A stretch of DNA of 64,000 bases from positions 981,972 through 1,045,971 of the forward strand of contig JAOAHD010000007.1 in assembly GCA_026415395.1 (NCBI GenBank), written 5' to 3'. Each line of letters begins with the position of its first letter. Position 1 is the first letter of the stretch. This DNA is from Candidatus Binatia bacterium (GTDB lineage Bacteria; Desulfobacterota; Binatia; HRBIN30). A program made the position numbers and the translations under genes. Of the stretch, positions 1 to 56,089 are shown piece by piece. The notes beneath the pieces are model-generated. The model did no database searches. It was not told the DNA's origin and saw only the letters and a program-made list of their open reading frames with translations.

Positions 1-1726
1 GGCCATGGCCAACCCGCTCCGCGTGCAAACGATAAACAGCTTGCCAAATGTTGTGCGCACTTTCCCCTTCGCCAGCATGGATGGTCAGGGGTAGACACTC
101 CCGGAACACGGGGTTCAACAGCCGCGCAAGTTCGCCGAAGCGCGGGGCGGTGCTTTCGTCGCCGGCAATGTCGACACCGACGATGAGATGCTGATGGGAG
201 CGGCGAGCCCGGATAATAGCTTTAATGTCGGCGAGGCTGAGCTCTCGGCGCCGGTCGAGTACGATCAACAAGCGGATGTCTAGCCCGGGATCTTCCTGCT
301 GCGCTTCCCGCAGCGCGTCGTCGAACACGAGTAAAAAGCGACCGATGTTCCCCTCGCCGGTGTGGTCGCACAAATACTTGTGGGGGCTACAGCGAAGCTC
401 ACAGTAGCATACTCCGTCGCGCCGGAGCCGTGTATAGGTTTGGCGTACGTACTCGCGCACTGCCGGTTCGGATTGGAGGAGGGCGGATCCGGAGAGTTCC
501 CCTGGGATTTCGTAGGCGCGAAAACCCAGCCCTGCTCGCAAGCCAACCCGCGGCTCCGTTGTTCGATAGAGGCGTTCAACGAGTTCGCCTTCGCTCAAGT
601 TGCAGAGGATGGCTGTGGCGGCGTTGAGGCGGTCGCGACCACGGCCTAGCAAGTTCGGCCAATTCGCAGGCCATTCTTTTTCTCGGTACCAAACCTTCAC
701 GCGCTCGAGCGCACGTTGGCGCTCCCGCTGGGACAGAAGGTCCCACACCACGCGGGCAACTTCCCGCTGCTGCGCAACGTCGAGCACCCCACCTAGGTGG
801 CAATGGAGGTCAGCCTTCGGTAGCGCTGTGAGCCACGTGCGGAGCTGTGGGCCGACCGTGTGCCGGCGCAGGGCTTCGATGTGCCGGGGGGAAAGGCGGT
901 ACAGTCCGTACCAGTTTGGTCGCGGTTCTTGCTCGAGCAAGTGTTTGAGGTGGCCCACGTAAATCCGCGGGCGCGCACGCTCGCGCGCACGCCAAACGTC
1001 CACCAGAGACGGCGCACGATGCTCCCAGAGGATCGTTATGGCGGTCGTGCTGCTGCTGGGAAGAGCTTCTCCTTCGATGGGGAACTCTTCCGGATCGAGG
1101 AGAGGAAATTCCGCGGTTTGCACGTCGAGCAAATCAGAGCGTTCGAGCGGACCGAAAAAAACTGGCTCGAGGCTGTTGGCGAGTTCGGGTTTCAACGGCG
1201 CGGTGAACAGGTCCGGAGTCGGTCTCCGCAGCGGTTCAGGGAGATTACGGTCGATGACGTGCACGCAAGCCCGTGCACCAAAGACGCTTCCCGCCCACTG
1301 CAAGTCGGCACTCATCGTTTTGCGCCCCCCAGCCACGCTCAAGACCAGCGCTTGGTGTTGGCCGTTGTGAGCAGCGTGAAACGTGAGGCGAAAGAGAAGC
1401 TCTCGCATTTCGTCGCATTCCTCGGTCGACCCTAAGTCGTGAGTGCGCCGCGCAACCCAGATCTTCAGAGGTGGAGCATCGGTGATTTGGTTCCAACAGG
1501 CGAGCAAAGCTTGACGTTGCTCTTCTGTGCCACCGGTGGTGGCGACCCAAACCTCATCGGGGGGAGCAATGCCGCGACTGAGGGTTTCTTGCCGAAAGCG
1601 CTCTCTTCGCTCGTGGTGGCGGAACAAATCCAGGATGTCGGGAGCCACCACCGCATACACCTCGGGTACAACCGCCCACGACGCGCCCAACGTACAGAGC
1701 AAAATGGAACGAGGCCTGTCTCCCAC
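1..1726 (-). CDS. CRISPR-associated adenosine deaminase, Cad1-like (CARF/NE0113-type sensor fused to ADA), 3' end cut by window edge
   Basis: The frame is open without a stop from a GTG at 1726 to the left edge (575 codons visible). An AAGGGAGG Shine-Dalgarno sits 4 bases upstream of the GTG. Residues 1-165 look like the CRISPR-associated NE0113 family: start ILLCTLGASWAVVPEVYA, a VWVATTGGTEEQR segment, and SVAGGRKTMSADL near residues 130-142. After a linker of about 135 residues comes an adenosine deaminase domain: KADLHCHLGG with metal-binding His308 and His310, GVDIAGDE around 517-524, and HAGE with His550 and catalytic Glu553. The remaining zinc and substrate residues (His, Asp-Asp) would lie beyond the edge. 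The family knowledge is that Cad1 proteins sense cyclic oligoadenylate made by type III CRISPR complexes and then deaminate an adenine nucleotide. No other cas gene or repeat array is in the window, so the CRISPR link rests on domain architecture. Confidence 0.85.
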   Translation of the reverse strand, partial: MGDRPRSILLCTLGASWAVVPEVYAVVAPDILDLFRHHERRERFRQETLSRGIAPPDEVWVATTGGTEEQRQALLACWNQITDAPPLKIWVARRTHDLGSTEECDEMRELLFRLTFHAAHNGQHQALVLSVAGGRKTMSADLQWAGSVFGARACVHVIDRNLPEPLRRPTPDLFTAPLKPELANSLEPVFFGPLERSDLLDVQTAEFPLLDPEEFPIEGEALPSSSTTAITILWEHRAPSLVDVWRARERARPRIYVGHLKHLLEQEPRPNWYGLYRLSPRHIEALRRHTVGPQLRTWLTALPKADLHCHLGGVLDVAQQREVARVVWDLLSQRERQRALERVKVWYREKEWPANWPNLLGRGRDRLNAATAILCNLSEGELVERLYRTTEPRVGLRAGLGFRAYEIPGELSGSALLQSEPAVREYVRQTYTRLRRDGVCYCELRCSPHKYLCDHTGEGNIGRFLLVFDDALREAQQEDPGLDIRLLIVLDRRRELSLADIKAIIRARRSHQHLIVGVDIAGDESTAPRFGELARLLNPVFRECLPLTIHAGEGESAHNIWQAVYRLHAERVGHG

Positions 1727-1921
1727 GGAACCTCCCTTCGTTGCCAATGAACTGCCGCGTTGCGGTAGTGTTTCACGCATGAGGCGCGAATTCTACTGCG
1801 ACCGATGGTTGGCAATGTTGCACTTTGCGCCGCTGAAGGGTCCGCGGGCTAGCGCCGAGGAGTCGGGGCCTTCAACATGGACTGCGCCCTGGTCGTCGAG
1901 CGGAGGTAGGGCCCGCGTTGG

Positions 1922-4459
1922 TCACAGTAAGGACTGGGGGTCGACATCGAGAACGATCCTCACATGTGCCTTTTGGGACAAGCGTTCCCGTACCAGGGTC
2001 CGCGCGTGGGCCGCGCTCCGGCGAGCGATTGCGGAATGAGTGGATCGAAGGAGGACTTGCCAACGGTACCAGCCGCGCAGCCGGAGCAACGGCGCTGGTG
2101 CCGGTCCGAGCACTTGGAGAGCGTGTCCGCCCAGTGCGGCAACGGTAGCCGCGAACTGATGTGCCACAGTTTGCGCTTCCTCTTCGTGCCGCGCCTCGAC
2201 ACGTGCGAGTACGAGCCGGGAAAACGGAGGGTAGGCGAGCTCTTGCCGGTGGGAGAGCTCGTAGCGGGCAAATCCCTCGTAGTCTTGGCTGGCCGCCCAT
2301 TGGAGGACTGGATCTTCTGGCCGATAGGTTTGCACAAGCACGCGTCCGGGAACGTCGCCCCGGCCGGCACGCCCGGCCACTTGGGTGAGAAGCTGGAAGG
2401 TGCGTTCGCTGGAGCGAAAGTCGGGCAGGTTGCGGGAGAGATCTGCAAGGATCACTCCGACGAGAGTGACGTTGGGAACATGATGACCCTTGGTCACCAT
2501 TTGTGTGCCGATCAAAATGTCGAAGTTCCCCGCGATCCAGTGATTGAGGATCTCCAGCAACGCCTTCGGTCGCGCGGCTACATCGCGATCCAGCCGGGCA
2601 ACGCGAGCATGGGGGAGCAACGCACGCACTACCTGCTCCACCTGCTCCGTGCCCGCACTCCATGCCGCCACTGCAGTTCCCCCGCACTGAGGGCAACAGC
2701 GTGGTGCGGGGGTCGTACGGCCACAATGGTGGCACTGTAGGGCGGCCTTCCGTTGGTGGTAGGTCAGGCTCACGGAGCAGTTCGCGCAGTTCATCACCGC
2801 TCCGCACTCAAGGCACTGCAGAAAGCGGGCATATCCACGACGATTGAGGAAGAGCAAGCTTTGTTGCTTGACCGCAAGGTTGAACTCGAGCGCCGAGCAG
2901 AGAGTCTGCGAGAGTGGGAGAGCACGCCCGTGGACCCGAGTGCCACGGAGGTCGATCAATTCCACCGTGGGTAGAGGACGGGTGTCGATGCGTTCGGGTA
3001 GGTGCAAAAGCCGGTAGCGACCTCGGCGTGCGTTGTAGTAACTCTCGAGGGAAGGGGTGGCCGAGCCGAGCACGATGGTGCAGTTAGCCAGGCGGGCGCG
3101 CATGACGGCGACATCGCGCGCGTGATAGCGCAGCCCCTCCTCTTGCTTGTACGCACCGTCGTGCTCCTCGTCGACAATGATCAAGCCCAGGTTCCGGAGC
3201 GGAGCGAAAACTGCACTGCGCGCGCCGACGGCAAGGTGTACGGCTCCGGAAGCGATGCGCTCCCACTGTTGCCAGCGCTCGCGCGGGCTCAATCCGCTAT
3301 GCAACAAAGCCACCTCGCTGCCAAAGCGCCCTCGGAGTGCGGTGACCAACTGATGCGTGAGGGAAATCTCTGGCACCAGCGCCAGGACTGTTTTTCCCGC
3401 AGAAAGACAGGCCTCGGCTGTTTGGAGGTAAACCTCGGTCTTCCCACTACCGGTGACCCCAAATAGGAGAAAGGGCACAAACCCCTCGTGTAACGAAGCC
3501 CTCAACTGACGAACGGCCTCGCTTTGGTGGGCAGTTAAAGGCAAAGCCTGGGAAGCCGTTTCCGTGGATGATGACAAGATGGGTTCCGGGGCTAAGCGGT
3601 CCCATTCGATGACCCCCGCCTCTTCTAAGAGGCGGAGCTTGGCCCGAGCAGAGGGGAAGTTGGCTTGGAGCTCGTCGAGCGTCGCGTAGCCGCTGGGGTG
3701 GTGGTAGAGGTATTCGTAGAAACGCCACAGCGCCGGGCGCCGTTGCATCCAGACTTCGACCTCGAGTTCAGGGAGCGGGGTGCTGATGCGGACGATTCGA
3801 AGACCTTGCCGTTCGGCCGGGACGGATGCCTCGGCTTGATAACGCACGAGGAGGATGCCTTGCCGGCATAGGCGCTCTAGCCGCGCAGTCGAAAACGCTT
3901 CTTTGAGCTGACGGCGTAGTGTTGGCACAGGAATCCAAGCATGCCGAGCGACATGCTCAACGATGTTGCGATCCTTTGGGTCAGCCACCTCCGTCAGTGC
4001 CGATGGTGCAGTCGACAGGAGGCGCCGCACGCGTACCTTGATCGCACTGGGAATCATCGTGGCAATCGCCTCGCTCAGGGAGCCGAGGTAATATTCGCCA
4101 AGCCAACGGGCGAGTTCGAGCAGCAAGGGGTCGAACAAAGGGCCGTTGTGGTCGAGGCACGCGGAGATTGGGCGCAAGTGAGGAGCTGCGGAGTGTTCGA
4201 CCTGTTGGATGACCACACCCATGACAAATCGGCGCCCGAGGGGAACGACCACACGGCTGCCGACTGCCACCTCGTGGGCGAGAGACTCAGGTACGACGTA
4301 GTCCAGGATGTCCAAGTTGCCTTGTGCCGGGATCAGCGCGACTTGGACGATCGGGCCCTCTGGTGCTGAAGTCCCCACAGCGTGAGGGTCAGGCTGTTCA
4401 GATGGCTCTGCCGGTTTCCCAGTTGAGGACAAGGCGGTGGCCCCGTTCTCAAGAACCAT
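1922..4459 (-). CDS. priA: Primosomal replication restart helicase PriA
   Basis: PriA is a 3'-5' superfamily 2 helicase that reloads the replisome at stalled forks. The N-terminal DNA-binding domain carries VVPLGRRFVMGVV. Walker A is GVTGSGKTEVY and the DEAH-type box is DEEHDGAY. The Zn-binding module has the expected cysteine pairs, from CLECGAVMNCANC to CHHCG and CCPQCGG. The length of about 845 residues is somewhat above typical because of an N-terminal extension. The start is taken as ATG at 4459, which overlaps the czcA stop by 11 bases; an in-frame GTG at 4483 is an alternative, and neither has a clear Shine-Dalgarno. It lies directly downstream of the efflux genes, so it may be co-transcribed with them. 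Confidence 0.95.
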   Translation of the reverse strand: MVLENGATALSSTGKPAEPSEQPDPHAVGTSAPEGPIVQVALIPAQGNLDILDYVVPESLAHEVAVGSRVVVPLGRRFVMGVVIQQVEHSAAPHLRPISACLDHNGPLFDPLLLELARWLGEYYLGSLSEAIATMIPSAIKVRVRRLLSTAPSALTEVADPKDRNIVEHVARHAWIPVPTLRRQLKEAFSTARLERLCRQGILLVRYQAEASVPAERQGLRIVRISTPLPELEVEVWMQRRPALWRFYEYLYHHPSGYATLDELQANFPSARAKLRLLEEAGVIEWDRLAPEPILSSSTETASQALPLTAHQSEAVRQLRASLHEGFVPFLLFGVTGSGKTEVYLQTAEACLSAGKTVLALVPEISLTHQLVTALRGRFGSEVALLHSGLSPRERWQQWERIASGAVHLAVGARSAVFAPLRNLGLIIVDEEHDGAYKQEEGLRYHARDVAVMRARLANCTIVLGSATPSLESYYNARRGRYRLLHLPERIDTRPLPTVELIDLRGTRVHGRALPLSQTLCSALEFNLAVKQQSLLFLNRRGYARFLQCLECGAVMNCANCSVSLTYHQRKAALQCHHCGRTTPAPRCCPQCGGTAVAAWSAGTEQVEQVVRALLPHARVARLDRDVAARPKALLEILNHWIAGNFDILIGTQMVTKGHHVPNVTLVGVILADLSRNLPDFRSSERTFQLLTQVAGRAGRGDVPGRVLVQTYRPEDPVLQWAASQDYEGFARYELSHRQELAYPPFSRLVLARVEARHEEEAQTVAHQFAATVAALGGHALQVLGPAPAPLLRLRGWYRWQVLLRSTHSAIARRSAAHARTLVRERLSQKAHVRIVLDVDPQSLL

Positions 4460-7400
4460 GGTTGAGCCATCGAGTGGCAACACGCCGTTCCAGCCACTCG
4501 TAAAGCGACGGGAGGATCAAAAGCGTCAACGTGGCAGCTGAGAGAATCCCGCCGATGACCACGGTTGCAAGCGGTCGTTGTACTTCCGCTCCCGAGCTAT
4601 GCGAAACGGCCATCGGCAAAAAGCCAAAGGCGGCAACAAGTGCCGTCATTAACACTGGCTTCAGGCGTTGCGTAGCACCCTGAACAGTAGCCTCGGTAAG
4701 CGCGAGGCCAGCCTCGCGCAGGCGGTTAATCGCGGAAATCATCACGACGCCGTTCAGGACTGCAATGCCAAACAACGCAACAAAGCCAATGGAAGCAGCG
4801 AGGTTCAAGTGTAAACCGCGAAGCCACAGGGCAGCGATCCCGCCGACGGTGCCAAACGGTACGCCCATCAGAACCAATGCGGCATACCGGAGGCGGCCGA
4901 ACGTGGCGTAGAGCAGCATGCAGACGATCCCTAGCGCGAGTGGAACCACGATCGCGAGGCGACGCATCGCGCGCTGCTGGTTCTCGAACTGTCCGCCCCA
5001 GCGGAAGTGGTAACCGGGTGGAAGGTGAACGGTTTCGTCGATCCGGTGGTGTGCCTCGGCAACAAAGCTGCCGAGGTCGCGTCCGCGCACGTTTGCTTGC
5101 ACCACCAACCGTCGCTGCCCATCTTCGCGCTGAATTGCTTCGGGAGAGTCTGTAGGGGTGATGCGGGCAATTTGGTGCAGTCGAATGCGCTCCCCACCGG
5201 GAGCGAGCAATGGAATCTGTGCCAGCGCCTCCGCATCCCGGCGATACGCCTCTGGCAGGCGGACGACAACCGGGAAGCGCCGCGCGCCTTCCAGGATTTC
5301 GGTTACCGTCACACCCCCGGTTGCCGCTTCGACCACATCACGAACGTCGTCGACCGACAGGCCGTAGCGCGCCAACGCCATACGGTCGATGGCGATTGAC
5401 AACTCCCGTGCCCCGGAGAGGAGTTCCAGGCGCAAGTCTGCAACGCCCGCAACCGTTTCCAGTGCAGCCCGGACTTCGTTGCCGATGCGCTGGAGCTCGG
5501 TGGGATCGGGACCGAAGATTTTCACGGCCACATCCGCCTTGATTCCGGAAATCACTTCGTCAAGCCGCATCGCCATTGGCTGAGTGAAGTTTAAAGAGAT
5601 TCCCGGCACCTGTTCCAAATGCTCGGCCAGGGCGTCGATCAATTCCTCTTTGGTTATGTGGTCAGGCCATTGCTCAGCCGGCTTGAGCAGGACGTACATG
5701 TCTCCCTCGTAGATCCCCATCGCTTCGGTCGCGATGTCGGGGCGGCCAATCTTGGTGACGACGCTCCTCACCTGGGGAAACTCCAAAAGCATCCGTTCGA
5801 GACGGGTGAAGGTGTCGACCGATTCCGCCAGGCTCACCGACGGGAGGAGGCGGACCTGCACGAGAATGGAGCCTTCGTCGAGTTTCGGCATGAACTCCGT
5901 CCCAAGAAAGGGCAAAGAGCACAAGGCCAGTACCACGACCCCCGCTGCCGAAGGAACGATGAGCTTGCGGCGGGCCATCACCGCGATCAGCAATTGTTGG
6001 TAACGGTTCTGAAGCCAACGGAACCACACGGCTTCTTCGTGCCGTTGAGGCGCGGTAGCGAGGACGTACGGTGCGGCGGCTGGGATGGCAGTGAGCGCAA
6101 GAAGCAGCGCGCCCAAAATGGCTGTGCAGACGGTGATCGCCATGGGCCGGTACATTTTTCCTTCCAGGCCCTCGAGGGTAAAAATGGGAAGGTACACGGC
6201 CACAATGATCGCGACTCCAAAAGCAACCGGTCGTGCGACTTCGATGGCGGCTGCACGGTAGACGGGGAGGAGGTCCTTGCGCATCCTCGTGCCGCGGTGT
6301 TCATCCCGTCGCCGTACCAGGTTCTCCACCATCACCACTGCGCCGTCGACAATGAGTCCGAAATCGATCGCGCCGAGCGACATGAGGTTGGCAGAGACAC
6401 CAAGCAAGTACATCCCGGAAAAGCCGCAGAGCATCGCTAACGGAATCACGGAAGAGACCAGCAGTGCTGCCCTCCAATCGCGCAGGAACAACACAAGGAC
6501 CAGGACTACGAGTGCGCAGCCTTCGAGCAGGTTGCGGGCTACAGTCCGGCTGGTGCGGTGGATGACTTCACTTTGGTCGTAAAACGGCTCGATGCGGGTT
6601 CCCGGTGGCAGCGTTTTTTCGATTTCTTTCACCCGCTGTTTGACTCGTTCGGTCGCCTCGGCCGCATTGGTTCCTTTTAAGAGAATCACCATCCCGGAGA
6701 CGGTTTCGCCACGGGCATCGCGCGTCACTGCGCCGTAGCGAGGCAGTGCCCCCAAAGAAATTTGGGCGAGATCGCGGAGGTAAATCGGGGTCCCATTGTG
6801 AGCCGCTAAAACGATGCTGCCGAGCTCTGTCATATCGGTGAGCTGGCCACGCCCACGGATGGTGAAACGCTCTGCTCCTTCTTCCACAAAACCACCGCCG
6901 AACACAGTGTTGTTGGCGCGCACTGCGTGGAGGACCTGGCTCAGGGCAAAGCCATACTTCTCTAGGCCCTGCGGGTCGACTTCCACCTCGAAGCGTTTGG
7001 TAAAGCCGCCCCAAGAATTCACTTCGCTTACGCCTTGGACGGAGCGCAGACGCAGGCGGATTTCCCAGTCTTGGAGCGTCTTCCGTTCCATGGCATCGAG
7101 AGGGCCTTCGACAAGGTACTGGAACACTTCGCCGAAAGGGGTTGCCACGGGCCCGAGCGTGGAGGTTACCCCTGCCGGTAATCTCTCGCGTACGTCAGCA
7201 AGCCGTTCGTTGACCTGTTGCCTGGCGAAGTAGAGCGGCACCTGGTCCTCGAACACGATCGTGACCAAGGACAGCCCGAACTTCGACGTCGACCGCACTT
7301 GCACGGCTCCGGGAATGCCCATGACGGCGGCTTCGATGGGATATGTGATCCAGTGTTCGACGTCGGCGGCCGCCATTCCTGGCGCCTCCGAAACGACCAC

Positions 7401-7547
7401 GACTTGTTGGTTGGTCAGATCCGGGAAGGCCTCAACGGGCAGCCAACGAAAGCACCAAAGGCCACCAACTATGAGTGCCGCGACGGCAGCGGCCACACCC
7501 GCAGGATGTCGGAACGTTGCTGCGACGAAGCGTTCGATCACTCCCAT
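4449..7547 (-). CDS. czcA: RND heavy-metal efflux permease, CzcA/CusA family
   Basis: This is the inner-membrane proton-antiport pump of a tripartite metal exporter, 1032 residues as expected for the HME-RND family. It begins with a membrane segment (IERFVAATFRHPAGVAA), followed by the porter domain with QVNERLADVRERLPAGV. The proton-relay helix AIDFGLIVDGAVVMVENLVRR has the conserved Asp/Asp/Glu set. The second half repeats the fold (GTEFMPKLDEGSILVQ) and ends with a final helix cluster. The order czcC-czcB-czcA on one strand, with a 17 bp gap to czcB, makes an operon. The metal (Co/Zn/Cd versus Cu/Ag) cannot be decided from what is visible. No metal regulator is adjacent. Confidence 0.95.
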   Translation of the reverse strand: MGVIERFVAATFRHPAGVAAAVAALIVGGLWCFRWLPVEAFPDLTNQQVVVVSEAPGMAAADVEHWITYPIEAAVMGIPGAVQVRSTSKFGLSLVTIVFEDQVPLYFARQQVNERLADVRERLPAGVTSTLGPVATPFGEVFQYLVEGPLDAMERKTLQDWEIRLRLRSVQGVSEVNSWGGFTKRFEVEVDPQGLEKYGFALSQVLHAVRANNTVFGGGFVEEGAERFTIRGRGQLTDMTELGSIVLAAHNGTPIYLRDLAQISLGALPRYGAVTRDARGETVSGMVILLKGTNAAEATERVKQRVKEIEKTLPPGTRIEPFYDQSEVIHRTSRTVARNLLEGCALVVLVLVLFLRDWRAALLVSSVIPLAMLCGFSGMYLLGVSANLMSLGAIDFGLIVDGAVVMVENLVRRRDEHRGTRMRKDLLPVYRAAAIEVARPVAFGVAIIVAVYLPIFTLEGLEGKMYRPMAITVCTAILGALLLALTAIPAAAPYVLATAPQRHEEAVWFRWLQNRYQQLLIAVMARRKLIVPSAAGVVVLALCSLPFLGTEFMPKLDEGSILVQVRLLPSVSLAESVDTFTRLERMLLEFPQVRSVVTKIGRPDIATEAMGIYEGDMYVLLKPAEQWPDHITKEELIDALAEHLEQVPGISLNFTQPMAMRLDEVISGIKADVAVKIFGPDPTELQRIGNEVRAALETVAGVADLRLELLSGARELSIAIDRMALARYGLSVDDVRDVVEAATGGVTVTEILEGARRFPVVVRLPEAYRRDAEALAQIPLLAPGGERIRLHQIARITPTDSPEAIQREDGQRRLVVQANVRGRDLGSFVAEAHHRIDETVHLPPGYHFRWGGQFENQQRAMRRLAIVVPLALGIVCMLLYATFGRLRYAALVLMGVPFGTVGGIAALWLRGLHLNLAASIGFVALFGIAVLNGVVMISAINRLREAGLALTEATVQGATQRLKPVLMTALVAAFGFLPMAVSHSSGAEVQRPLATVVIGGILSAATLTLLILPSLYEWLERRVATRWLNHGS

Positions 7548-7564: not shown

Positions 7565-8806
7565 TCAATCCTCCGAGGGGTGCGCGCGGAGCACCAATGT
7601 GGACTTCAGAAGAAAGCTGCCACGAGCGACAACACGATCGCCATGGCGCAAGCCCGACTTGACCTCGACCCACCCGTCGCCAACTCGGCCAATCTCAACT
7701 GGCCGCTGTTGAAACTTGCTTTCCGCGATCGGCACGAAGACGACGCTGCGCCCATCTAGCTGTTGCACTGCCGACTGGGGAATGACGAGCAACGCTTGGG
7801 CGTGGGGCTCGGAAATTTCGAGTTCGGCAAACATCTCGGGCTTAAGCTTGCCGTCTCGGTTGTCCACCGTGCAACGAACTTTGACGCGGCGTGTTTTCGG
7901 ATCTAGCACATCACTGATGTATTCGATCGTCGCCGTAAAGGTCTCGTTCGGGTAGGCGGAAACCTTAAACCGCACCCAGGTTCCTGAAGTCAGTTTGTTG
8001 AGCCAACGTTCGTCGACCTCTGCTAGCAGCCAGAGAGTGTCCAGTTGTGCGACGGTGAACAGGGGTGAACCGGGTACAATCCCTTGGCCGGGACTCGCCG
8101 GTCGCTCCACGACGGTACCGTGAATTGGGGAGCGAAGGGGGAGTCCTGACGGGTGAACGTCGTTCGCTTTGCCACCTCCGAGGGCCAGCCAATCTCTTCG
8201 AGCACGAGACAGCTCCGCGCGTGCCGCACGCACTTTGTTGCGCGCGATCACCACATCCAGCCGGGCGCGCTCAAGCTCCTGCAAAGCAGCAGCTTTGGCC
8301 GCGAAGAGACGGCGAGCCCGTGCGTGTTGTTGTAGGGCAAATTGGAGTTCGGCACTGGCGGAGCGCTCGCTAGCCGACGCAGTACGGAGTTGCGCCACGG
8401 TGGCCTCCCAATTGGGGCTATATAACCAAGCGAGGATTTGCCCCTCGGTGACGCGGTCACCGACGAGGGCGAGGACGTCGCGCACTCGCCCTTCGACTGG
8501 TGAACCGAGGCGCGCGGTTTTGCGTTCGTCGAACGCGACCACTGCAGGTGCCGTAATAGACTCACTGACTTCGGTGTGCCGGGCAACGACGATTTCGAAG
8601 CCGAGCCGCTCCTGAATTGCCGTTGGCACCTCCACGGTGTCGCCCGCAATGGCGACAGGTCCGGGGTTCGGGTCTCGGTCTGGTTGTGTGCAGGCGAAAA
8701 GTGTGGCGGCGGCGAACAGCAGGGCGACTGCACCACCAACCCGGCGCTGCTGCCATTTGGCGCTTGTGACAACGGAGAAGGAAATCGGAGAGAGCGCACG
8801 CCTCAT
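7565..8806 (-). CDS. czcB: Efflux RND periplasmic adaptor (membrane fusion) lipoprotein, CzcB/CusB family
   Basis: The 413-residue adaptor bridges the inner-membrane pump and the outer-membrane channel. The N-terminus has a hydrophobic stretch ending in a lipobox-like LFAC (Cys about residue 39), so it is probably a lipoprotein after a long n-region. A biotinyl-lipoyl/hairpin region follows: VVERPASPGQGIVPGSPLFTV and an Ala/Arg/Leu-rich coiled coil around residues 135-200. The beta-barrel segment VDERWLNKLTSGTWVRFKVSAYP follows that. The 5' end overlaps the czcC stop by 4 bases (ATGA type), which suggests translational coupling. Confidence 0.92.
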   Translation of the reverse strand: MRRALSPISFSVVTSAKWQQRRVGGAVALLFAAATLFACTQPDRDPNPGPVAIAGDTVEVPTAIQERLGFEIVVARHTEVSESITAPAVVAFDERKTARLGSPVEGRVRDVLALVGDRVTEGQILAWLYSPNWEATVAQLRTASASERSASAELQFALQQHARARRLFAAKAAALQELERARLDVVIARNKVRAARAELSRARRDWLALGGGKANDVHPSGLPLRSPIHGTVVERPASPGQGIVPGSPLFTVAQLDTLWLLAEVDERWLNKLTSGTWVRFKVSAYPNETFTATIEYISDVLDPKTRRVKVRCTVDNRDGKLKPEMFAELEISEPHAQALLVIPQSAVQQLDGRSVVFVPIAESKFQQRPVEIGRVGDGWVEVKSGLRHGDRVVARGSFLLKSTLVLRAHPSED

Positions 8807-10122
8807 GGCCCGTTGTCGCTAGACAAAATGCGCCATGTTTGCGCGGCGAAAACCGCCTCAGCCCAAGTTCCCACCACGGTTCGTCGTACCTCCAGGTACA
8901 CGCGTTCAGCATCAACCAGAGCCAAAATCTCGCCGCTGCCTTCATGGAACGCAACCTGCGCGGCCCGGCGTACGTTCGATGCGGGCTCGATCATTTCTTC
9001 GTGCGCCGAGAGCATCCGCGCCGCCAAAGCGCGCCAGCGGCTTAACACCGCAAATAGCTCGGCGCGCACGCGTTGGGCTGTGGCATCCACCAGCGCGTTG
9101 GCCGCACTCAGTTCTGCCGTCGCTCGCTGCACGTTGCCCCGGTTCGTGTCCAGTACCGGGAGAGGGACAGACACGCCCGTCACCAGCGTGTCACGCGCTG
9201 CGGTGCGTTTGTACCCGGCGGTTATCGCCGGGTCTGGAATGCGGCGGGCTTGTTCCAGATCGAGCGCATGTTGCGCTCGCTCCTTCGCGGCGACACTCGC
9301 CTGATACTCGGGGTGTTTGCGGAGCACCTCTTCTACGATGACCGTGTCTCCAAGAGACGGGGGCGTTTCGAACTGCGGCTTCTCCAGCGTATCGGGGGGA
9401 AGCTGCGGGTCGTCCAGCAACTGACGAAGTTGCTGAAGTGCGATCGCCTCGCTAGCGTGGAGTTCCGTGGCGATTGTACGCAACCGGCCCAGCTCAGCTT
9501 CCAATTTTAACTGCTCCGCCACCGCAAGCTTCCCTTCGCGTACACGCCGCTCGGCAATCGCCCTCAGTGCGGCGATTTCGTGTTCCGACTCCCCAACAAT
9601 CTCCAATTCTTCTCGGAGCCGGAGGACGGCGATGAACTGCTTGGCGGTTTCGAGCGCGAAGTGCTGTCGTAGCGCGCGTGCCTGCTGTTGAGCCAGGTTT
9701 ACCCCAGCCCAAGCAACTGCTTGCCGTGCTGCTCGTTTTCCTCCGAGTTCAACGAGTTGGCTCACAGTAGCGAAGAAATCGAGGTCAGGGTTGTCGGCGC
9801 GCAACTCTGGCGCAAGCCGCCAATTTTCACCGCGCAGCTCGGCTACTGGATTGTGCCAGCGGCTCGCCTGGTACCAACTCGCTTGCGCCGCGGCGACTTG
9901 CTCGGTGGCTGCCCGCACTGCGGGCGACCGCTCGAGCGCACGGGCGATTGCCGAGGAGATGTCCAGAGCCGCTGCCTTTGATAGGGAGAGGTGTGTCAGG
10001 GATAGGAGGAGCACGGCGCGATGCACGACCGCGAGGAGGGGTGTTCGTGAGCTTGCCCGCTGCGAGCGAGCACCGGCAGCACCACAGAGCATCGCCGGTG
10101 GTGGATGTGCGGAGGCGGGCAT
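8803..10122 (-). CDS. czcC: Outer-membrane efflux channel protein, TolC/CzcC family
   Basis: TolC-type channel of the Czc system. It carries two copies of the outer-membrane efflux protein helical repeat, for example ISSAIARALERSPAVRAA near the start and long Ala/Glu/Leu-rich coiled coils. A hydrophobic stretch (RAVLLLSLTHLSLS) before AAALDI looks like a signal peptide. The open frame extends to 10587, but its first 155 residues are low-complexity and lie antisense to the divergent gene, so they were dropped. ATG 10122 is used here; ATG 10092 and GTG 10026 are alternatives, and none has a good Shine-Dalgarno. The start codon at 10122 overlaps that of the divergent gene by two bases, which is odd. 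Confidence 0.88.
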   Translation of the reverse strand: MPASAHPPPAMLCGAAGARSQRASSRTPLLAVVHRAVLLLSLTHLSLSKAAALDISSAIARALERSPAVRAATEQVAAAQASWYQASRWHNPVAELRGENWRLAPELRADNPDLDFFATVSQLVELGGKRAARQAVAWAGVNLAQQQARALRQHFALETAKQFIAVLRLREELEIVGESEHEIAALRAIAERRVREGKLAVAEQLKLEAELGRLRTIATELHASEAIALQQLRQLLDDPQLPPDTLEKPQFETPPSLGDTVIVEEVLRKHPEYQASVAAKERAQHALDLEQARRIPDPAITAGYKRTAARDTLVTGVSVPLPVLDTNRGNVQRATAELSAANALVDATAQRVRAELFAVLSRWRALAARMLSAHEEMIEPASNVRRAAQVAFHEGSGEILALVDAERVYLEVRRTVVGTWAEAVFAAQTWRILSSDNGP

Positions 10123-11197
10123 GGAGCTGAGTCGGACCGGCTGCATAGCGCGCGTCAACCTGGGCGCTTCTACACGAAAAATTTCGGTGGCGGTAGCGTG
10201 CATTTTGGCGTTTGCCTGCGCTCGCAGTGATGCGGTCGAACCAAGCGGACCGCTGGGCCTAAGGAATTTCCAGCCGTTGCGGCAGATTTTTCTGCATCCG
10301 CCGTTTGTTGCGGCGCGCGTGCTCGAGCCGGGACGACTTCGGTTCAGCGTAGAGACGGCTGAGAGCAACGTGATCGCCACGGACCGCGGCGCTGTCGATG
10401 CGCTGCTCAAATTCGAACAAAATCGTACGGCGCTGCGCCTATCGCTCGGGTTGGCTCCAGCCTGGCAAGCCAGTGTGGAGCTGCCGCTACTCTCGCGCTT
10501 TGGCGGTGTGTTGGACCCAGTTATCGACAGCACGGAGGACCTGTTCTCAGCTTTTAACCCGGAGCGGCGGCTGTTCCCAAACAACACATTCGGGGGTTTC
10601 TGGGTGCGACGCCGCGGGCAAGTTTTGTTTCACGGGCCCCGCCAGTACGCCGAGCTGGGTGACGTGTCAGGTGAGGTGCAGCGAGAAGTTTGGAGTGGTG
10701 CGAGTGGTGGTCGACTTGCCGCGCGCTTCGCAATCGAGGCACCAACTGGGCGCTCGAGTGCGGTATGGGGCAGCGGCATTTGGGAAGTGGCCAGTGGGGT
10801 AGCTGGAGACTACCCGTTATGGTCGGACCGCCTGTGGGTGTACGGCAACCTCAACGGTGTGTTCCCCCTGGGAAGGGTAAGCGCGGCACGGCTTGCACTC
10901 GATCCATTTTTACAGCAGACCGTCGCCTTCGAAAGGATGGCCTCGAAGCGTTGGTCGTTCCTTCTGCAACAGGAGTTGTACACGAGCCCCTTTCGGGAGT
11001 TGCACTCCGCAGTTTTGGAGGGAACCATCATCGAGCTCGCGGTGGGGGTGGTGTATCGAGATGGCCCTTGGCGTTGTTGGCTGGGTGGAATCGACAATGT
11101 CAGTGGTGTGGCGCAAGCGGCCGATTTCACCGCGATTGTAGGGTGCGACCTTACGATGCGCCCGCGCTGGAATCGCCGGGTCGATGAGCCGTTGTGA
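10121..11197 (+). CDS. DUF3187-like outer-membrane beta-barrel protein
   Basis: About 358 residues. The ATG at 10121 is chosen over the longer frame (9791) because GGAGG lies 5 bases upstream and a signal peptide follows directly (ISVAVACILAFACA). The mature part begins with a Leu/Pro-rich NFQPLRQIFLHPP segment. It is dominated by alternating aromatic/polar beta-strand-like stretches such as ALRLSLGLAPAWQASVELPL and TFGGFWVRR, resembling DUF3187 proteins that are predicted outer-membrane barrels. The function is unknown. It is divergent from czcC with no intergenic space, and its 3' end overlaps the convergent methyltransferase by 47 bp. A role in metal efflux is possible only by position. 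Confidence 0.8.
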   Translation: MELSRTGCIARVNLGASTRKISVAVACILAFACARSDAVEPSGPLGLRNFQPLRQIFLHPPFVAARVLEPGRLRFSVETAESNVIATDRGAVDALLKFEQNRTALRLSLGLAPAWQASVELPLLSRFGGVLDPVIDSTEDLFSAFNPERRLFPNNTFGGFWVRRRGQVLFHGPRQYAELGDVSGEVQREVWSGASGGRLAARFAIEAPTGRSSAVWGSGIWEVASGVAGDYPLWSDRLWVYGNLNGVFPLGRVSAARLALDPFLQQTVAFERMASKRWSFLLQQELYTSPFRELHSAVLEGTIIELAVGVVYRDGPWRCWLGGIDNVSGVAQAADFTAIVGCDLTMRPRWNRRVDEPL

Positions 11198-52397: not shown

Positions 52398-53237
52398 GTG
52401 CTTTTCGCACCAGCCGCTGCCGTCGCAGGTGTACGCTTTTACTTCTCCGAAAAATTTTGGCCGCCGCAGTCACGTTGGGTATCCGGAGAGGGAATCACAC
52501 AACTTGTAGAATCGATCCCGTACTCAGTGCGGGGCAAACTCATTGTCGCGCCGGGAGCCGGATATTTCTTTGCTGTCCGAGAACGTACGGACAAGGGGCG
52601 AATGGAGGCTTCGGACACAGAAAATTGGTGGCCGTCGGCCAATACGGAGGTGACGTATGCGTTTTCGGGGCACTGGGAGCTCCTAGAGCCATTTTATCGG
52701 GGCATGGTGGGATCCGAGCGCGTCCGTGCGTTTGGCAAGCCGTTCTCCGTGACCTTTGAGCCTCGGACTTGGGATTGGCTGCGTGAATACGGTTGGAGCT
52801 ATGAAGTTGAATGTTCCTCCCCGCGATTCCACGAAGATGCGCAGGTTCCGGCACGGTTTCATTTAAGCCAGACGGTGCCCGGGTTCTTTTGCGATGGCCC
52901 GTCGATCGATCGTTGGACAGGTCGCTGGCTGGGCGACGTGTCCAACCTGCAGTTCCGGTTCGAACATGGTGAGGCAGCGGTTGTTGTGGGCAGTGGGCCG
53001 GTCATGGGAGCGGGAAAGAGATCAGTCGATTTTCGCGTTGCTCACAACGACATGATTTCGATTGCGCTAACGGTGCCCCGCGGCACGGCCGTTGTGGCCT
53101 TTTTGGTGTGGCGTTCCCCGGCTGGAGAGTCCGTGCCCCCGTGGTTCTCTGTGCGCCCAGAGCTCACGTGTTCTTCAGGTGGGTTCGCGACCGAGGGCGT
53201 CGCCTGCATGGCCACAACGGGAACTTTGCACCATTAA
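52398..53237 (+). CDS. C-terminal part of the same membrane protein, after amber codon
   Basis: 279 residues from GTG 52398, in frame with the previous gene. The beginning (FAPAAAVAGVRFYFSEKFWPPQ) reads as the last membrane helix of a PMT-like protein. The rest (LIVAPGAGYFFAVRER, VTYAFSGHWELLEPFYRG, FRFEHGEAAVVVGSG) is a soluble, beta-rich domain with many Trp/Phe. There is no good Shine-Dalgarno at a usable distance: GGGGAGG lies 17 bases before the GTG, just behind the TAG. Independent expression is therefore uncertain. The 3' end overlaps cofE convergently by 4 bp. Confidence 0.6.
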   Translation: MLFAPAAAVAGVRFYFSEKFWPPQSRWVSGEGITQLVESIPYSVRGKLIVAPGAGYFFAVRERTDKGRMEASDTENWWPSANTEVTYAFSGHWELLEPFYRGMVGSERVRAFGKPFSVTFEPRTWDWLREYGWSYEVECSSPRFHEDAQVPARFHLSQTVPGFFCDGPSIDRWTGRWLGDVSNLQFRFEHGEAAVVVGSGPVMGAGKRSVDFRVAHNDMISIALTVPRGTAVVAFLVWRSPAGESVPPWFSVRPELTCSSGGFATEGVACMATTGTLHH

Positions 53238-53989
53238 CGAAAAAGATCTTCTTCGGGTGCACGAATCAACGCACGTGCGGAGGCCTGTGGCTCAGGCGAC
53301 CACTCGTACCCGCGAATGTGCACGGCAGCCACACCTGCGTCTTTCTTCATCAGCAGCCCTGCCGCGGCCGCTAGGGCGTCTGCTTGAGCGTAAACCGTAT
53401 GGTGTAGGACTCGGCCATTGAGGTCCCTTTTGCCGCGCCAGTCCGATAGAGGGCCAATCCCCGCAAGCCCGATGGCAAAGTCCACCAAACCATTCCGCCA
53501 CGGCCGTCCCCAAGTGTCGCTAATAATTACCGCAATCTCAGCCCCCGAACGTTGTTGGAGCTGGGATCGAATCCGCTCCGCGGAAGCATCCGGATCGCGG
53601 GGCAAAAGTACAGCGGTGTTCGGTCCCGGCGCATTCGACTCGTCGACGCCGGCATTTGCGCACACCCACCCCGGTCCTGTCTCCACGATCAGCACTCCCC
53701 GGTGGGCGCGAACGATGCGATTGGACTCGCGGAGAACGACTTCAACCACGCGCGGGTCTTTGTCCTGGCTGCCCGCAGCCAATGTGCGGGCAGCCGGACT
53801 CGGGACGACTTGACTCAGGTCCACGATGGATCCTTCGCTTTTGGAGACTACTTTTTGACACACAACGAGAATGTCCCCGTCCTTAAGCAGCAGCCCGCAC
53901 GTCCTCAATGCCTCAAGCAAGAGGGCAGCGAGCTCGTCGCCCGGTTGCACGCGGGGCAGGCATTGTAAGGGGGAAAATACTACGCTCAT
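53234..53989 (-). CDS. cofE: Coenzyme F420:L-glutamate ligase (CofE)
   Basis: 251 residues. CofE adds glutamate units to F420-0. Family signals: DGDILVVCQKVVSKSEG, NRIVRAHRGVLIVETGPGWVCANAGVDESN and AVIISDTWGRPWRNGLVDFAIGLAGI, together with the GTP/Mg-binding acidic positions. It has only the ligase domain, with no FbiB-type nitroreductase extension. It overlaps cofD by 4 bases and closes the cofG-cofH-cofD-cofE operon. Confidence 0.94.
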   Translation of the reverse strand: MSVVFSPLQCLPRVQPGDELAALLLEALRTCGLLLKDGDILVVCQKVVSKSEGSIVDLSQVVPSPAARTLAAGSQDKDPRVVEVVLRESNRIVRAHRGVLIVETGPGWVCANAGVDESNAPGPNTAVLLPRDPDASAERIRSQLQQRSGAEIAVIISDTWGRPWRNGLVDFAIGLAGIGPLSDWRGKRDLNGRVLHHTVYAQADALAAAAGLLMKKDAGVAAVHIRGYEWSPEPQASARALIRAPEEDLFR

Positions 53990-54945
53990 GCGGGCAGGAG
54001 CTCCAAGGTGAGCTCAGCCAAGGCCGTAGCTCGCTCTGGAGACGTGATCAGGATGTCTGCGAGCACTGGGCGCATTCCCAGGCGCTCGATGCGCGGTGCG
54101 TAGCGGGCGTCTTGCCGATCGAGAACAAAGGTCGCTGCGATGTCTCGGTACAGTTGGGCGACACCGTAGGGCGAGACCTCGATTCCAATGCCCCTCAGCA
54201 TGCGGTCGAGCGGCCCCTTCACCGGTACGCCACCGAGGAGAGGGCTGATTGCCAGAATGCGCTCTCGTTTTCGACGCAGGAGTCGGCGCACGCCGCGCAG
54301 TTGGAGGATGGGCCCCAGGCTCACCAGCGGATTGCTGGGCGGCAAAACGATGCGCTTCGCTTGCTGCAGTGCGGTGCGCGCCGCCTTCGTGGGGGTGGCT
54401 CGCTTGATGCCCCGCAGGCGGATGGCTTCCACATCGGCCGACGCGGAATGTAGAACTAAGTACCGCTGGAAAGGAAGCCAGCCATGTTGTCGGGTGCGAA
54501 CGAGCGTCGATACGCGGCTGTCCGTCATGGGTAAGACTCTCTCCATCACCCCAAATTTCTGGGCAATTTCCAGGGTGACGCGCGTCAGGGTGGCTCCCTG
54601 CTTCAATCGTTGCGTTCGATAGATGTGGGTTGCCAAATCACGGTCACCCAAACGGAACCAAGCGGGACCATAAAAGCGCTCAAGAGCGGAGAGGCAGTGG
54701 AAGGTATCGGCGGCCACGCCCCAGCCGCGACGCAGTGGTGCCAAGCCAGCTAAGGTGTAGATCACGGTGTCGATGTCGGGTGAAACGTGGAAACCGTAAA
54801 ACTCTTCGTCGTCCGCAGTGTTGACGATAACGGTGATTGCCTTCGGATCAGTGCACGAGTGAAGCCCCCGAAGGAAGCGGGCGGCTCCTACGCCCCCAGC
54901 GAGCACCAGGGTCGGTGTCGAATTCACTGCGCGAGACTCTTCCAT
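53986..54945 (-). CDS. cofD: 2-phospho-L-lactate (or related) transferase CofD/FbiA
   Basis: 319 residues. CofD joins the FO chromophore to a phosphorylated three-carbon unit, giving F420-0 or its dehydro form. The Rossmann-type start TPTLVLAGGVGAARFLRGL is followed by VIVNTADDEEFYGFHVSPDID, the Asp-rich metal and FO-binding site. IVLPPSNPLVSLGPILQLRG, with the ISPLLGG segment, is the second hallmark. The core begins at residue 12, so the ATG at 54945 is needed and overlaps cofH by 98 bp, an unusually long overlap. Which lactate or PEP-like substrate is used is not visible. Confidence 0.94.
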   Translation of the reverse strand: MEESRAVNSTPTLVLAGGVGAARFLRGLHSCTDPKAITVIVNTADDEEFYGFHVSPDIDTVIYTLAGLAPLRRGWGVAADTFHCLSALERFYGPAWFRLGDRDLATHIYRTQRLKQGATLTRVTLEIAQKFGVMERVLPMTDSRVSTLVRTRQHGWLPFQRYLVLHSASADVEAIRLRGIKRATPTKAARTALQQAKRIVLPPSNPLVSLGPILQLRGVRRLLRRKRERILAISPLLGGVPVKGPLDRMLRGIGIEVSPYGVAQLYRDIAATFVLDRQDARYAPRIERLGMRPVLADILITSPERATALAELTLELLPA

Positions 54946-56089
54946 AAGTCGTGGTACGTTCCTGGGGGATTCGGTTCATGCCTAGAATCAAACTGTGGAT
55001 TGCTTCAACGGGGAGGTATTCCCCCGCATCGGCGCCGGCCGATTTGGAAATTTGCTCCTCCATCAGCGTTCCACCAAAGTCGTTGCATCCGGTTGCAAGG
55101 CTCCACTGGGCGAGCTCCGTACCCAATTTCACCCATGAAGTCTGGATGTTCACGATGAGGGGGCGAAGCATCAGGCGGGAGAAAGCATAGATCTTGAGGT
55201 CGAGAGAACCCTTGGGCGGTGGGTTGACCAGGCCCTTTTGGTAGAGCGCGGTATACGTATGAATAAAGCGTAGAGGCACGAATTCGGTGAAGCCTCCGGT
55301 TTCGCGCTGGATGGAGCGAAGAATCTCAATATGCTGCAGGATGTGGTGGGGCTTTTCGATGTGGCCATACATCATGGTGGAAGAGCTCCGCAGGCCAACC
55401 TTGTGCGCCGTCGTGACAATTTCGATCCAGCTTCGGACATCGACTTTTTTGTGGCTCAAGATGTCGCGAACGTCGTCATCCAAAATCTCGGCGGCCGTCC
55501 CCGGTATGGTGCCGAGGCCCGCCTCCCGAAGCATCGTGAGATACTCCCGGTACGGCATTCCAGCCCGTCGTGCCCCGTAAAAGATCTCCATCGGCGAAAA
55601 CGCGTGGATGTGGATTGTGGGGAACACGCGTTTGATCTCGATGAGGAGGTCACGGTAGAAAAGCGGCGGCATCTCCGGATTGATGCCGCCCTGCATGCAG
55701 ATTTCAGTCGCTCCCCGTTCCACCGCCTCGGCTACTTTAGCGAGGATGGTCTCGACGGAGTCTGTGCGCGCGTCCGCGTCCTTGCGGTGGCGGGCGAAGG
55801 CACAAAACTGGCAGCCGACGAAGCACACGTTGGTGAAGTTAATGTTGCGATTGACCACGTACGTAACCTCGTCTCCCACGTCGAGTTGCCGCGCCACGTC
55901 GGCTGCACGCAGTAGTGCCCGCAGATCCGGCCCTTCGGCCGCGAGCAAGCGCAACCCGTCGGCTGCGGAAAGTTCGTGCCCGGAGAGCGCGCGGTCAAGC
56001 AGCCGGGCCACCTCGGGGTGGGCATCCCGCAAGGTCTTCTCCACTGGTGAGGTGTCAAAAATCAGGGATCGCAGCTCGTAGTTCAGCAC
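54848..56089 (-). CDS. cofH: FO synthase subunit CofH (radical SAM)
   Basis: 413 residues. With CofG it makes 7,8-didemethyl-8-hydroxy-5-deazariboflavin. The radical SAM cluster is CFVGCQFCAF with C-x3-C-x2-C spacing. The CofH/MqnC core continues with INFTNVC, ICMQGGINPEMPPLFY and GTAAEILDDDVRDILSHKKV. The start is GTG 56089 with AAAGGAG upstream, overlapping cofG by 7 bases. The last 30 residues (from about residue 384) extend past the usual end and are the part that overlaps cofD. MqnC is the closest alternative but the partner cofG supports CofH. Confidence 0.93.
   Translation of the reverse strand: MLNYELRSLIFDTSPVEKTLRDAHPEVARLLDRALSGHELSAADGLRLLAAEGPDLRALLRAADVARQLDVGDEVTYVVNRNINFTNVCFVGCQFCAFARHRKDADARTDSVETILAKVAEAVERGATEICMQGGINPEMPPLFYRDLLIEIKRVFPTIHIHAFSPMEIFYGARRAGMPYREYLTMLREAGLGTIPGTAAEILDDDVRDILSHKKVDVRSWIEIVTTAHKVGLRSSSTMMYGHIEKPHHILQHIEILRSIQRETGGFTEFVPLRFIHTYTALYQKGLVNPPPKGSLDLKIYAFSRLMLRPLIVNIQTSWVKLGTELAQWSLATGCNDFGGTLMEEQISKSAGADAGEYLPVEAIHSLILGMNRIPQERTTTYGRVSRSEFDTDPGARWGRRSRPLPSGASLVH

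Follow-up and report, generated by a model that had tools for sequence, protein, structure and literature searches.

A Cad1-family CARF-adenosine deaminase gene with a conserved place between priA and def, away from CRISPR loci, in a genus of Binatia

In the three genomes compared from a genus of Binatia, namely the genome analysed here, G001 (bacterium HR30, L011) and G002 (a Candidatus Binatia MAG, L012), a gene coding for a CARF domain joined to an adenosine deaminase domain (CARF-ADA) stands at the same place between priA and def. By its sequence the protein is a member of the known Cad1 (CARF5-ADA) family. The kind of protein is known, and the point of interest is its fixed place away from CRISPR. 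We consider it rather probable that a Cad1 effector left its CRISPR locus in the ancestor of the genus and is now a core gene acting in trans. The gene would have quit its CRISPR setting in that ancestor, entered the priA-def interval and been inherited vertically as a core gene from then on. The presumed ligand of the paired CARF domains is a cyclic oligoadenylate, either cA4 or cA6, and its binding would switch on a hexameric deaminase, a trimer of dimers, which converts ATP to ITP and causes growth arrest. In the genome analysed here, the enzyme would be fed in trans by the Cas10 of a type III-B locus on another contig (C10).

The window, i.e. the whole stretch of 64,000 nucleotides that was analysed, contains the larger part of the gene (Table 1). 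The first-pass annotation had described an open frame of at least 575 codons at the left edge, preceded by a Shine-Dalgarno sequence and incomplete in the window. This was borne out in all points: counted from the GTG at 1726 the frame has exactly 575 codons within the window, the element AAGGGAGG lies ahead of it, and extension of the contig to the left recovered the final 416 bases including the stop codon. The whole gene occupies G000:C7:981556-983697 and encodes a full-length CARF and adenosine deaminase protein of 713 residues counted from the GTG, without internal stops. In the list of open reading frames that allows open ends the frame is given as 2..1780 (minus strand) with an upstream ATG, which would lengthen the protein by 18 codons (731-aa form). 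We prefer the GTG because of the preceding AAGGGAGG and because both orthologues start at the same column, the motif VG[ED]xx[KR]S opening all three proteins from there. The length of the frame, together with the purifying selection on it in three species, rules out a chance frame.

Table 1. Features at the left edge of the window, with positions in the window.
Feature	Position	Strand	Remarks
CARF-ADA (Cad1-family) gene, codons 1-575 of 713	2..1726	(-)	continues left to G000:C7:981556
CARF5 (Cas_NE0113-like) sensor domain	1172..1726	(-)	about residues 1-185; limits approximate
Adenosine-deaminase-like domain, start	2..826	(-)	from about residue 301
Shine-Dalgarno-like AAGGGAGG	1731..1738	(-)	precedes the GTG start; read in the sequence
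priA	1922..4483	(-)	upstream neighbour, same strand, 195 bases off; PriA domains by Pfam
RND efflux pump gene (cusA-like)	4449..7547	(-)	ACR_tran; conserved in L011 and L012
Membrane-fusion and outer-membrane efflux genes (cusB-, cusC-like)	7565..10587	(-)	HlyD_D23, OEP

A search of the full protein with profile models found both halves above their Pfam cut-offs, A_deaminase with E 3.6e-42 (145 bits, cut-off 27) and Cas_NE0113 with E 7e-7 (29.7 bits, cut-off 23). The PADLOC model CARF5--CARF_ADA matched residues 25-721 of the 731-aa form (2.8e-198), and the cut-off of the NCBIfam adenosine deaminase equivalog TIGR01430 was missed (159.1 versus 216.55 bits). The assignment to the Cad1 type made in the first-pass annotation therefore stands, as the complete protein includes the second catalytic half and its N-terminal domain is recognised by a CARF profile. 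The sensor motifs are LLCTLGASW (9-17), AGGRKTMSA (132-140, with Lys136) and HVIDR (156-160); the stretch SVAGGRKTMS that had been placed near residue 130 is found as SVAGGRKTMSA at 130, counted from the GTG. In the deaminase domain HCHLGG (His308, His310, Gly312), HAGE (His550, Glu553) and GHG (His574) are located in the window, and TDN (Asp640, Asn641) left of it. The earlier numbering of His308, His310 and Glu553 agrees exactly with the GTG start.

The five best sequence matches in the PDB (9ebt, 9ubl, 8z3p, 8z3k and 9c67; 600-635 aa, E 9e-53 to 1e-47) are chains which we take to be Cad1 proteins. In the alignments of two of these five both protein halves were covered, and 9ebt is titled as a CRISPR-associated ring nuclease and adenosine deaminase. 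Lys136, Gly312 and Asn641 align with residues 106, 264 and 549 of the 9ebt chain. These are the numbers that the accessible text of Whyms et al. (PMC12669630) gives for TaqCad1, in which Lys106 is the CARF lysine and Gly264 and Asn549 replace the aspartates of ordinary adenosine deaminase. In the present protein Gly312 and Asn641 stand where Asp19 and Asp296 of the mouse enzyme would be, so that both Cad1 substitutions are present.

The family alignment comprised 24 rows, of which 23 were readable (3 of the genus and 20 others; G027 was in the wrong frame). His308, His310, His550, Glu553, His574, Asp640 and Asn641 are kept in all 23, and Gly312 as well as the CARF lysine in 22, the deviating row being G301 in both cases (Glu in place of the glycine). 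An AlphaFold2 monomer model, computed with the HR30 orthologue and two other rows as alignment, had a mean pLDDT of 42.5, too low to build on. The full-length family match together with the glycine and asparagine at the Cad1-specific places is an argument for a Cad1 effector as the origin of the gene. By analogy with the family the reaction is likely the conversion of ATP to ITP; TaqCad1 is reported to deaminate ATP and hardly adenosine (Whyms et al., PMC12669630).

The neighbourhood of the gene consists of def, fmt, rsmB, rpe, tRNA-Pro, an SH3-domain protein, plsY, amt, glnB and glnA on its left, and of priA followed by the RND efflux set on its right (names from Pfam, the tRNA by ARAGORN). 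The gene lies at least 295 kb from both ends of its 1.28-Mb contig. The order efflux-priA-[CARF-ADA]-def-fmt-rsmB-rpe-plsY-amt-glnB-glnA was found in all three genomes of the genus, with frames that by eye resemble the cusB- and cusC-like genes in L011 and L012. In the four other genomes of the family that were compared priA and def are neighbours, and the CARF-ADA gene is absent between them, with a priA-def spacing of 94, 185, 200 and 1269 bases (stop codon included); one of these genomes (G003) has just a 37% deaminase piece. The same place in these three members of the genus and the gene-free interval in these four other members of the family argue for a move into this interval in the ancestor of the genus; the claim of a core gene rests on just three species, which counts against it. 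The gap between priA and the CARF-ADA gene is longest in G002, at 1.29 kb (L012:8732-10018); it spans about 380 bases in HR30 and 195 in the window. No convincing gene was seen in the gap of G002. Further off, at 53237-56089, the window contains the F420 genes F420_ligase (CofE), CofD and a radical SAM gene with CofH_C, with a further radical SAM gene adjoining.

A genome-wide search for Cas10, RAMP, Cas1 and the type III repeat found none of them near the gene. The matches lie on contigs C10 and C16 and at C7:58-64 kb and C7:216-223 kb, more than 750 kb from the gene, and neither the window nor the 17.5 kb that adjoin the gene on its left contain a repeat array. The first-pass annotation had suggested to look nearby for cas10, csm/cmr and repeats, and with the models used none of these was found beside the gene. 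Its reading of the architecture as the mark of a type III CRISPR effector is tenable only for a possible action in trans, since the intact type III locus found is on C10 and no type III part was found in G002, which has the gene.

The CARF-ADA proteins share 70, 68 and 72% identity (own genome with HR30, own genome with G002, HR30 with G002), compared to 68, 68 and 77% for PriA and 69, 70 and 76% for RsmB in the same order. The corresponding pN/pS values are 0.275, 0.301 and 0.250 for CARF-ADA, 0.295, 0.281 and 0.222 for PriA, 0.294, 0.277 and 0.239 for RsmB, and 0.268, 0.290 and 0.164 for Fmt. The gene is under purifying selection and changes at roughly the pace of PriA, Fmt and RsmB, and this similarity at a pN/pS of 0.25-0.30 is a further argument for a core gene. 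Def, Rpe, CusA and GlnA are held more tightly (0.02-0.20), which speaks against it, and PlsY is mostly looser (0.22-0.41). Synonymous sites are near saturation among the three genomes (pS 0.66-0.76); the gene has therefore long been resident at its place. The three orthologues align over 708 codons with zero internal gaps, and none of the three CARF motifs compared differs among them, G002 included. On the G002 branch dN of the whole gene is 1.21 times that of the HR30 branch (bootstrap 0.88-1.67), i.e. not clearly raised, with 0.92-1.55 for six neighbours.

A Cas10 with a cyclase motif is present in the genome analysed here, though a Cas10 was not found throughout the genus. The type III-B locus at the end of C10 contains repeats, two CARF5 proteins, a primase-polymerase, Cas1, Cas10, Cmr3, a RAMP gene, Cmr6, Cmr1, Cas6 and a Csx1 of the form CARF-HEPN-CARF, and its Cas10 shows a GGDD cyclase motif and an HD motif, both read by eye. 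At the edge of the locus stands a CARF5 protein (L005:329-2044) with a long N-terminal extension in the chosen frame. For the gene right of the locus the other 6 genomes gave no match, so that an empty site could not be shown. HR30 has a similar type III-B locus with Cas10b, Cmr3, Cmr4, Cmr6 and Cmr1, and 29 repeats that differ by one base from the repeat of our genome; its Cas1 is split over two frames (G001:C47:7572-8427) by a frameshift or an assembly error.

Fragments of two additional type III loci were observed at G000:C7:58604-64268 (L063) and G000:C7:216792-222464 (L064), with Cmr6, Cmr1-like genes and a Cas10c in two frames. Several of them have internal stops, and both loci are apparently broken. 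Contig C16 ends with a 602-aa frame with a Cas1 match followed by three 37-base repeats with a period of 73 bases (L090:13824-16319), probably a further CRISPR locus of this genome.

The type III-B loci in two of the three genomes are in favor of an effector that is used in trans. The C10 locus has CARF proteins of its own (Csx1 and the two CARF5 proteins) and does not need an effector from outside, which is an argument against this. Hoikkala et al. (PMC11229360) propose, in the part of the paper accessible, that type III loci lacking an effector may drive effectors elsewhere in the genome, and such a suggestion for type III in general lends support to our preferred reading.

Relatives in the phylum were surveyed as well. 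Of 395 sampled genomes, which were taken from a larger group, 23 carry the family (match E <= 1e-60), our genome included and G001 and G002 standing outside these 23. In thirteen of the 22 other carriers a Cas10 match lies on the contig of the gene and no more than 27 kb away, and on contigs longer than 100 kb this holds for 10 out of 10. The remaining nine copies lie on contigs of 3.5 to 22 kb, on which a Cas10 neighbourhood cannot be judged; among them cas1 was shown in G147, G326 and G190 and cas2 in G265. No clear Cas10 was counted for G211 and G265, whose PF22335 matches are frames of about 300-570 aa that look, as we presume, mostly like GGDEF proteins. In this sample the genus is an exception to the link of CARF-ADA copies with Cas10.

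A midpoint-rooted tree of 23 rows, from which G027 (wrong frame) and G020 (match split in two frames, L030 and L036) were omitted and in which the G322 row is cut by a contig end, unites the three rows of the genus with four rows of family f49 (G147, G265, G326 and G362) in one group (100/100). The f49 rows are the nearest found, at about 2 changes per column from the genus, and resemble it in the motifs LVCTLGASW, TIHAGEG and CTDNPGIS. In three of the four f49 genomes cas1 (G147, G326) or cas2 (G265) lies at most 2.6 kb from the gene, whereas the copies of the genus are away from cas. The cas-adjacent state is likely the older one, and these three genomes suggest that leaving CRISPR was the direction of the move. 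The fourth genome makes the CRISPR link of the nearest relatives less uniform and thereby weakens the argument: in G362 a scan of five neighbouring frames gave no cas core gene, the genome as a whole has no Cas10 match, and its CARF-ADA copy may be a second case outside CRISPR. On its 9.7-kb contig (G362:C211, L074) neighbouring frames matched Mad3/Mad8-like proteins and a DEDDh exonuclease. In viral contigs no relative was confirmed (two peptide patterns, 22 stretches), and among plasmid and phage records 66 and 5 matched, none with 80% cover; the matches listed (15 plasmid, 5 phage) are to the deaminase half alone.

The genome of G002 has to be considered separately. It gave zero matches to the Cas10 palm2 model, to RAMPs and to the type III repeat of our genome (up to 3 mismatches), and its sole Cas_NE0113 match is the CARF-ADA gene itself. 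A type I-E cas operon was found in it beside an array of 61-base period, and a stretch of G001 looks similar by eye, with a similar array (L088:606-8739 and L089:3-7730). The draft consists of about 50 contigs at about 95% completeness and 4% contamination; type III is likely absent, with the reservation that the models could miss very divergent parts. That G002 keeps the gene while no type III part was found counts against an effector fed by Cas10.

This gap may lie in the incomplete MAG, type III being served by the enzyme in all three species. Such a reading concerns G002 alone and would be compatible with the one we prefer; we regard it as possible but doubtful. CRISPR loci are frequently lost in binning, and the draft state of G002 fits this. 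However, Cas10, RAMPs and repeats are all missing together, and binning did recover the type I-E locus along with a portion of its array, which indicates that CRISPR loci were not lost wholesale.

The lineage of G002 may instead have lost type III, leaving the gene in this species as a young relic or as an effector on stand-by for transient type III systems, which we think unlikely. Turnover of type III is seen in the two broken-looking loci on our own C7. In the CARF domain 19 residues are changed solely in G002 and 8 solely in HR30, compared to 38 and 33 in the deaminase domain, a direction that fits a relaxation of the sensor; yet this difference between the domains falls short of significance (ratio of ratios 1.8, 0.84-4.06, with 6.3% of 2000 bootstrap replicates giving 1 or less), and the frame of G002 is intact.

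More far-reaching, and in our estimation improbable, is the reading that the gene is uncoupled from type III throughout the genus and senses another nucleotide as a stand-alone ATP-to-ITP switch in stress or defence. It would then be a nucleotide-gated core gene independent of CRISPR that answers a signal not made by Cas10, at least in species free of type III, for which we see an equally small chance. The ligand might, with the same reserve, be a product of RNA cleavage, namely a short linear oligoadenylate bearing a 2',3'-cyclic phosphate, or else a messenger that a different system makes. G002 offers the main argument, with its lack of type III parts despite a type I-E locus in the MAG, its only Cas_NE0113 match in the gene itself and no clear relaxation of the whole gene on its branch. 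An activation of TaqCad1 by linear A2>P at high concentration is described in the available text of PMC12669630 and makes another ligand in G002 chemically thinkable. A CARF protein working outside CRISPR is known in RtcR (PMC7790460, PMC9650030), which differs in being a transcription activator of RNA repair genes and not a deaminase; its operon is regulated by damaged tRNAs, as far as the accessible part of PMC7790460 describes. Against an uncoupling speak the three CARF motifs unchanged in G002, the type III-B loci in two of the three species and the possibility that the draft of G002 misses a type III locus. It also counts against an uncoupling that SMODS, the one cyclase model searched as a sign of a CBASS messenger source, had no match in any of the three genomes, so that no alternative cyclase came to light.

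That the protein is a metabolic adenosine deaminase of purine salvage with a vestigial CARF part is highly improbable. The gene is the sole A_deaminase (PF00962) match of our genome at E <= 0.001 and has housekeeping neighbours, but it carries Gly312 and Asn641 in place of the two aspartates, and its compared CARF motifs are identical in the three species. For TaqCad1, with the same changes, the accessible text reports no deamination of adenosine by UV and a weak one by mass spectrometry (PMC12669630). An assembly artefact as the cause of the position is next to impossible, since the three genomes, although all drafts, are separate records with the same gene order, on a contig of 1.28 Mb in our case and of 421 kb in G002.

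Among known systems the protein resembles Cad1 (BabCad1, TaqCad1, LngCAAD) over its whole length, with CARF and deaminase domains, HxH, HAGE, TDN, the CARF lysine and the Gly/Asn substitutions. RdrB of RADAR presumably has no CARF domain, unlike the protein described here. It is alike in the conversion of ATP to ITP by an anti-phage ATP deaminase, as mentioned in PMC12669630. The place differs from that of BabCad1, which according to the text available lies directly downstream of cas10-csm (PMC11645235), whereas the present gene stands in the priA-def interval away from cas. Our literature search turned up no paper that describes a Cad1 with a fixed position among housekeeping genes, a weak indication since most subscription papers lay outside the search.

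Type III effectors are mostly sought inside type III loci, and this genus departs from that pattern. It provides a clean case for the question of whether type III messengers can drive effectors encoded far away, and also for the question of which role Cad1 has where the cell lacks Cas10. According to Baca et al., more than 70% of 88 Cad1 homologues are in genomes bearing type III (PMC11645235, accessible part), and the conserved place together with the gene-free relatives makes the homologues outside such genomes testable. If the reading independent of CRISPR were true, an alarm effector of CRISPR would have turned into a core gene which answers a signal other than that of Cas10.
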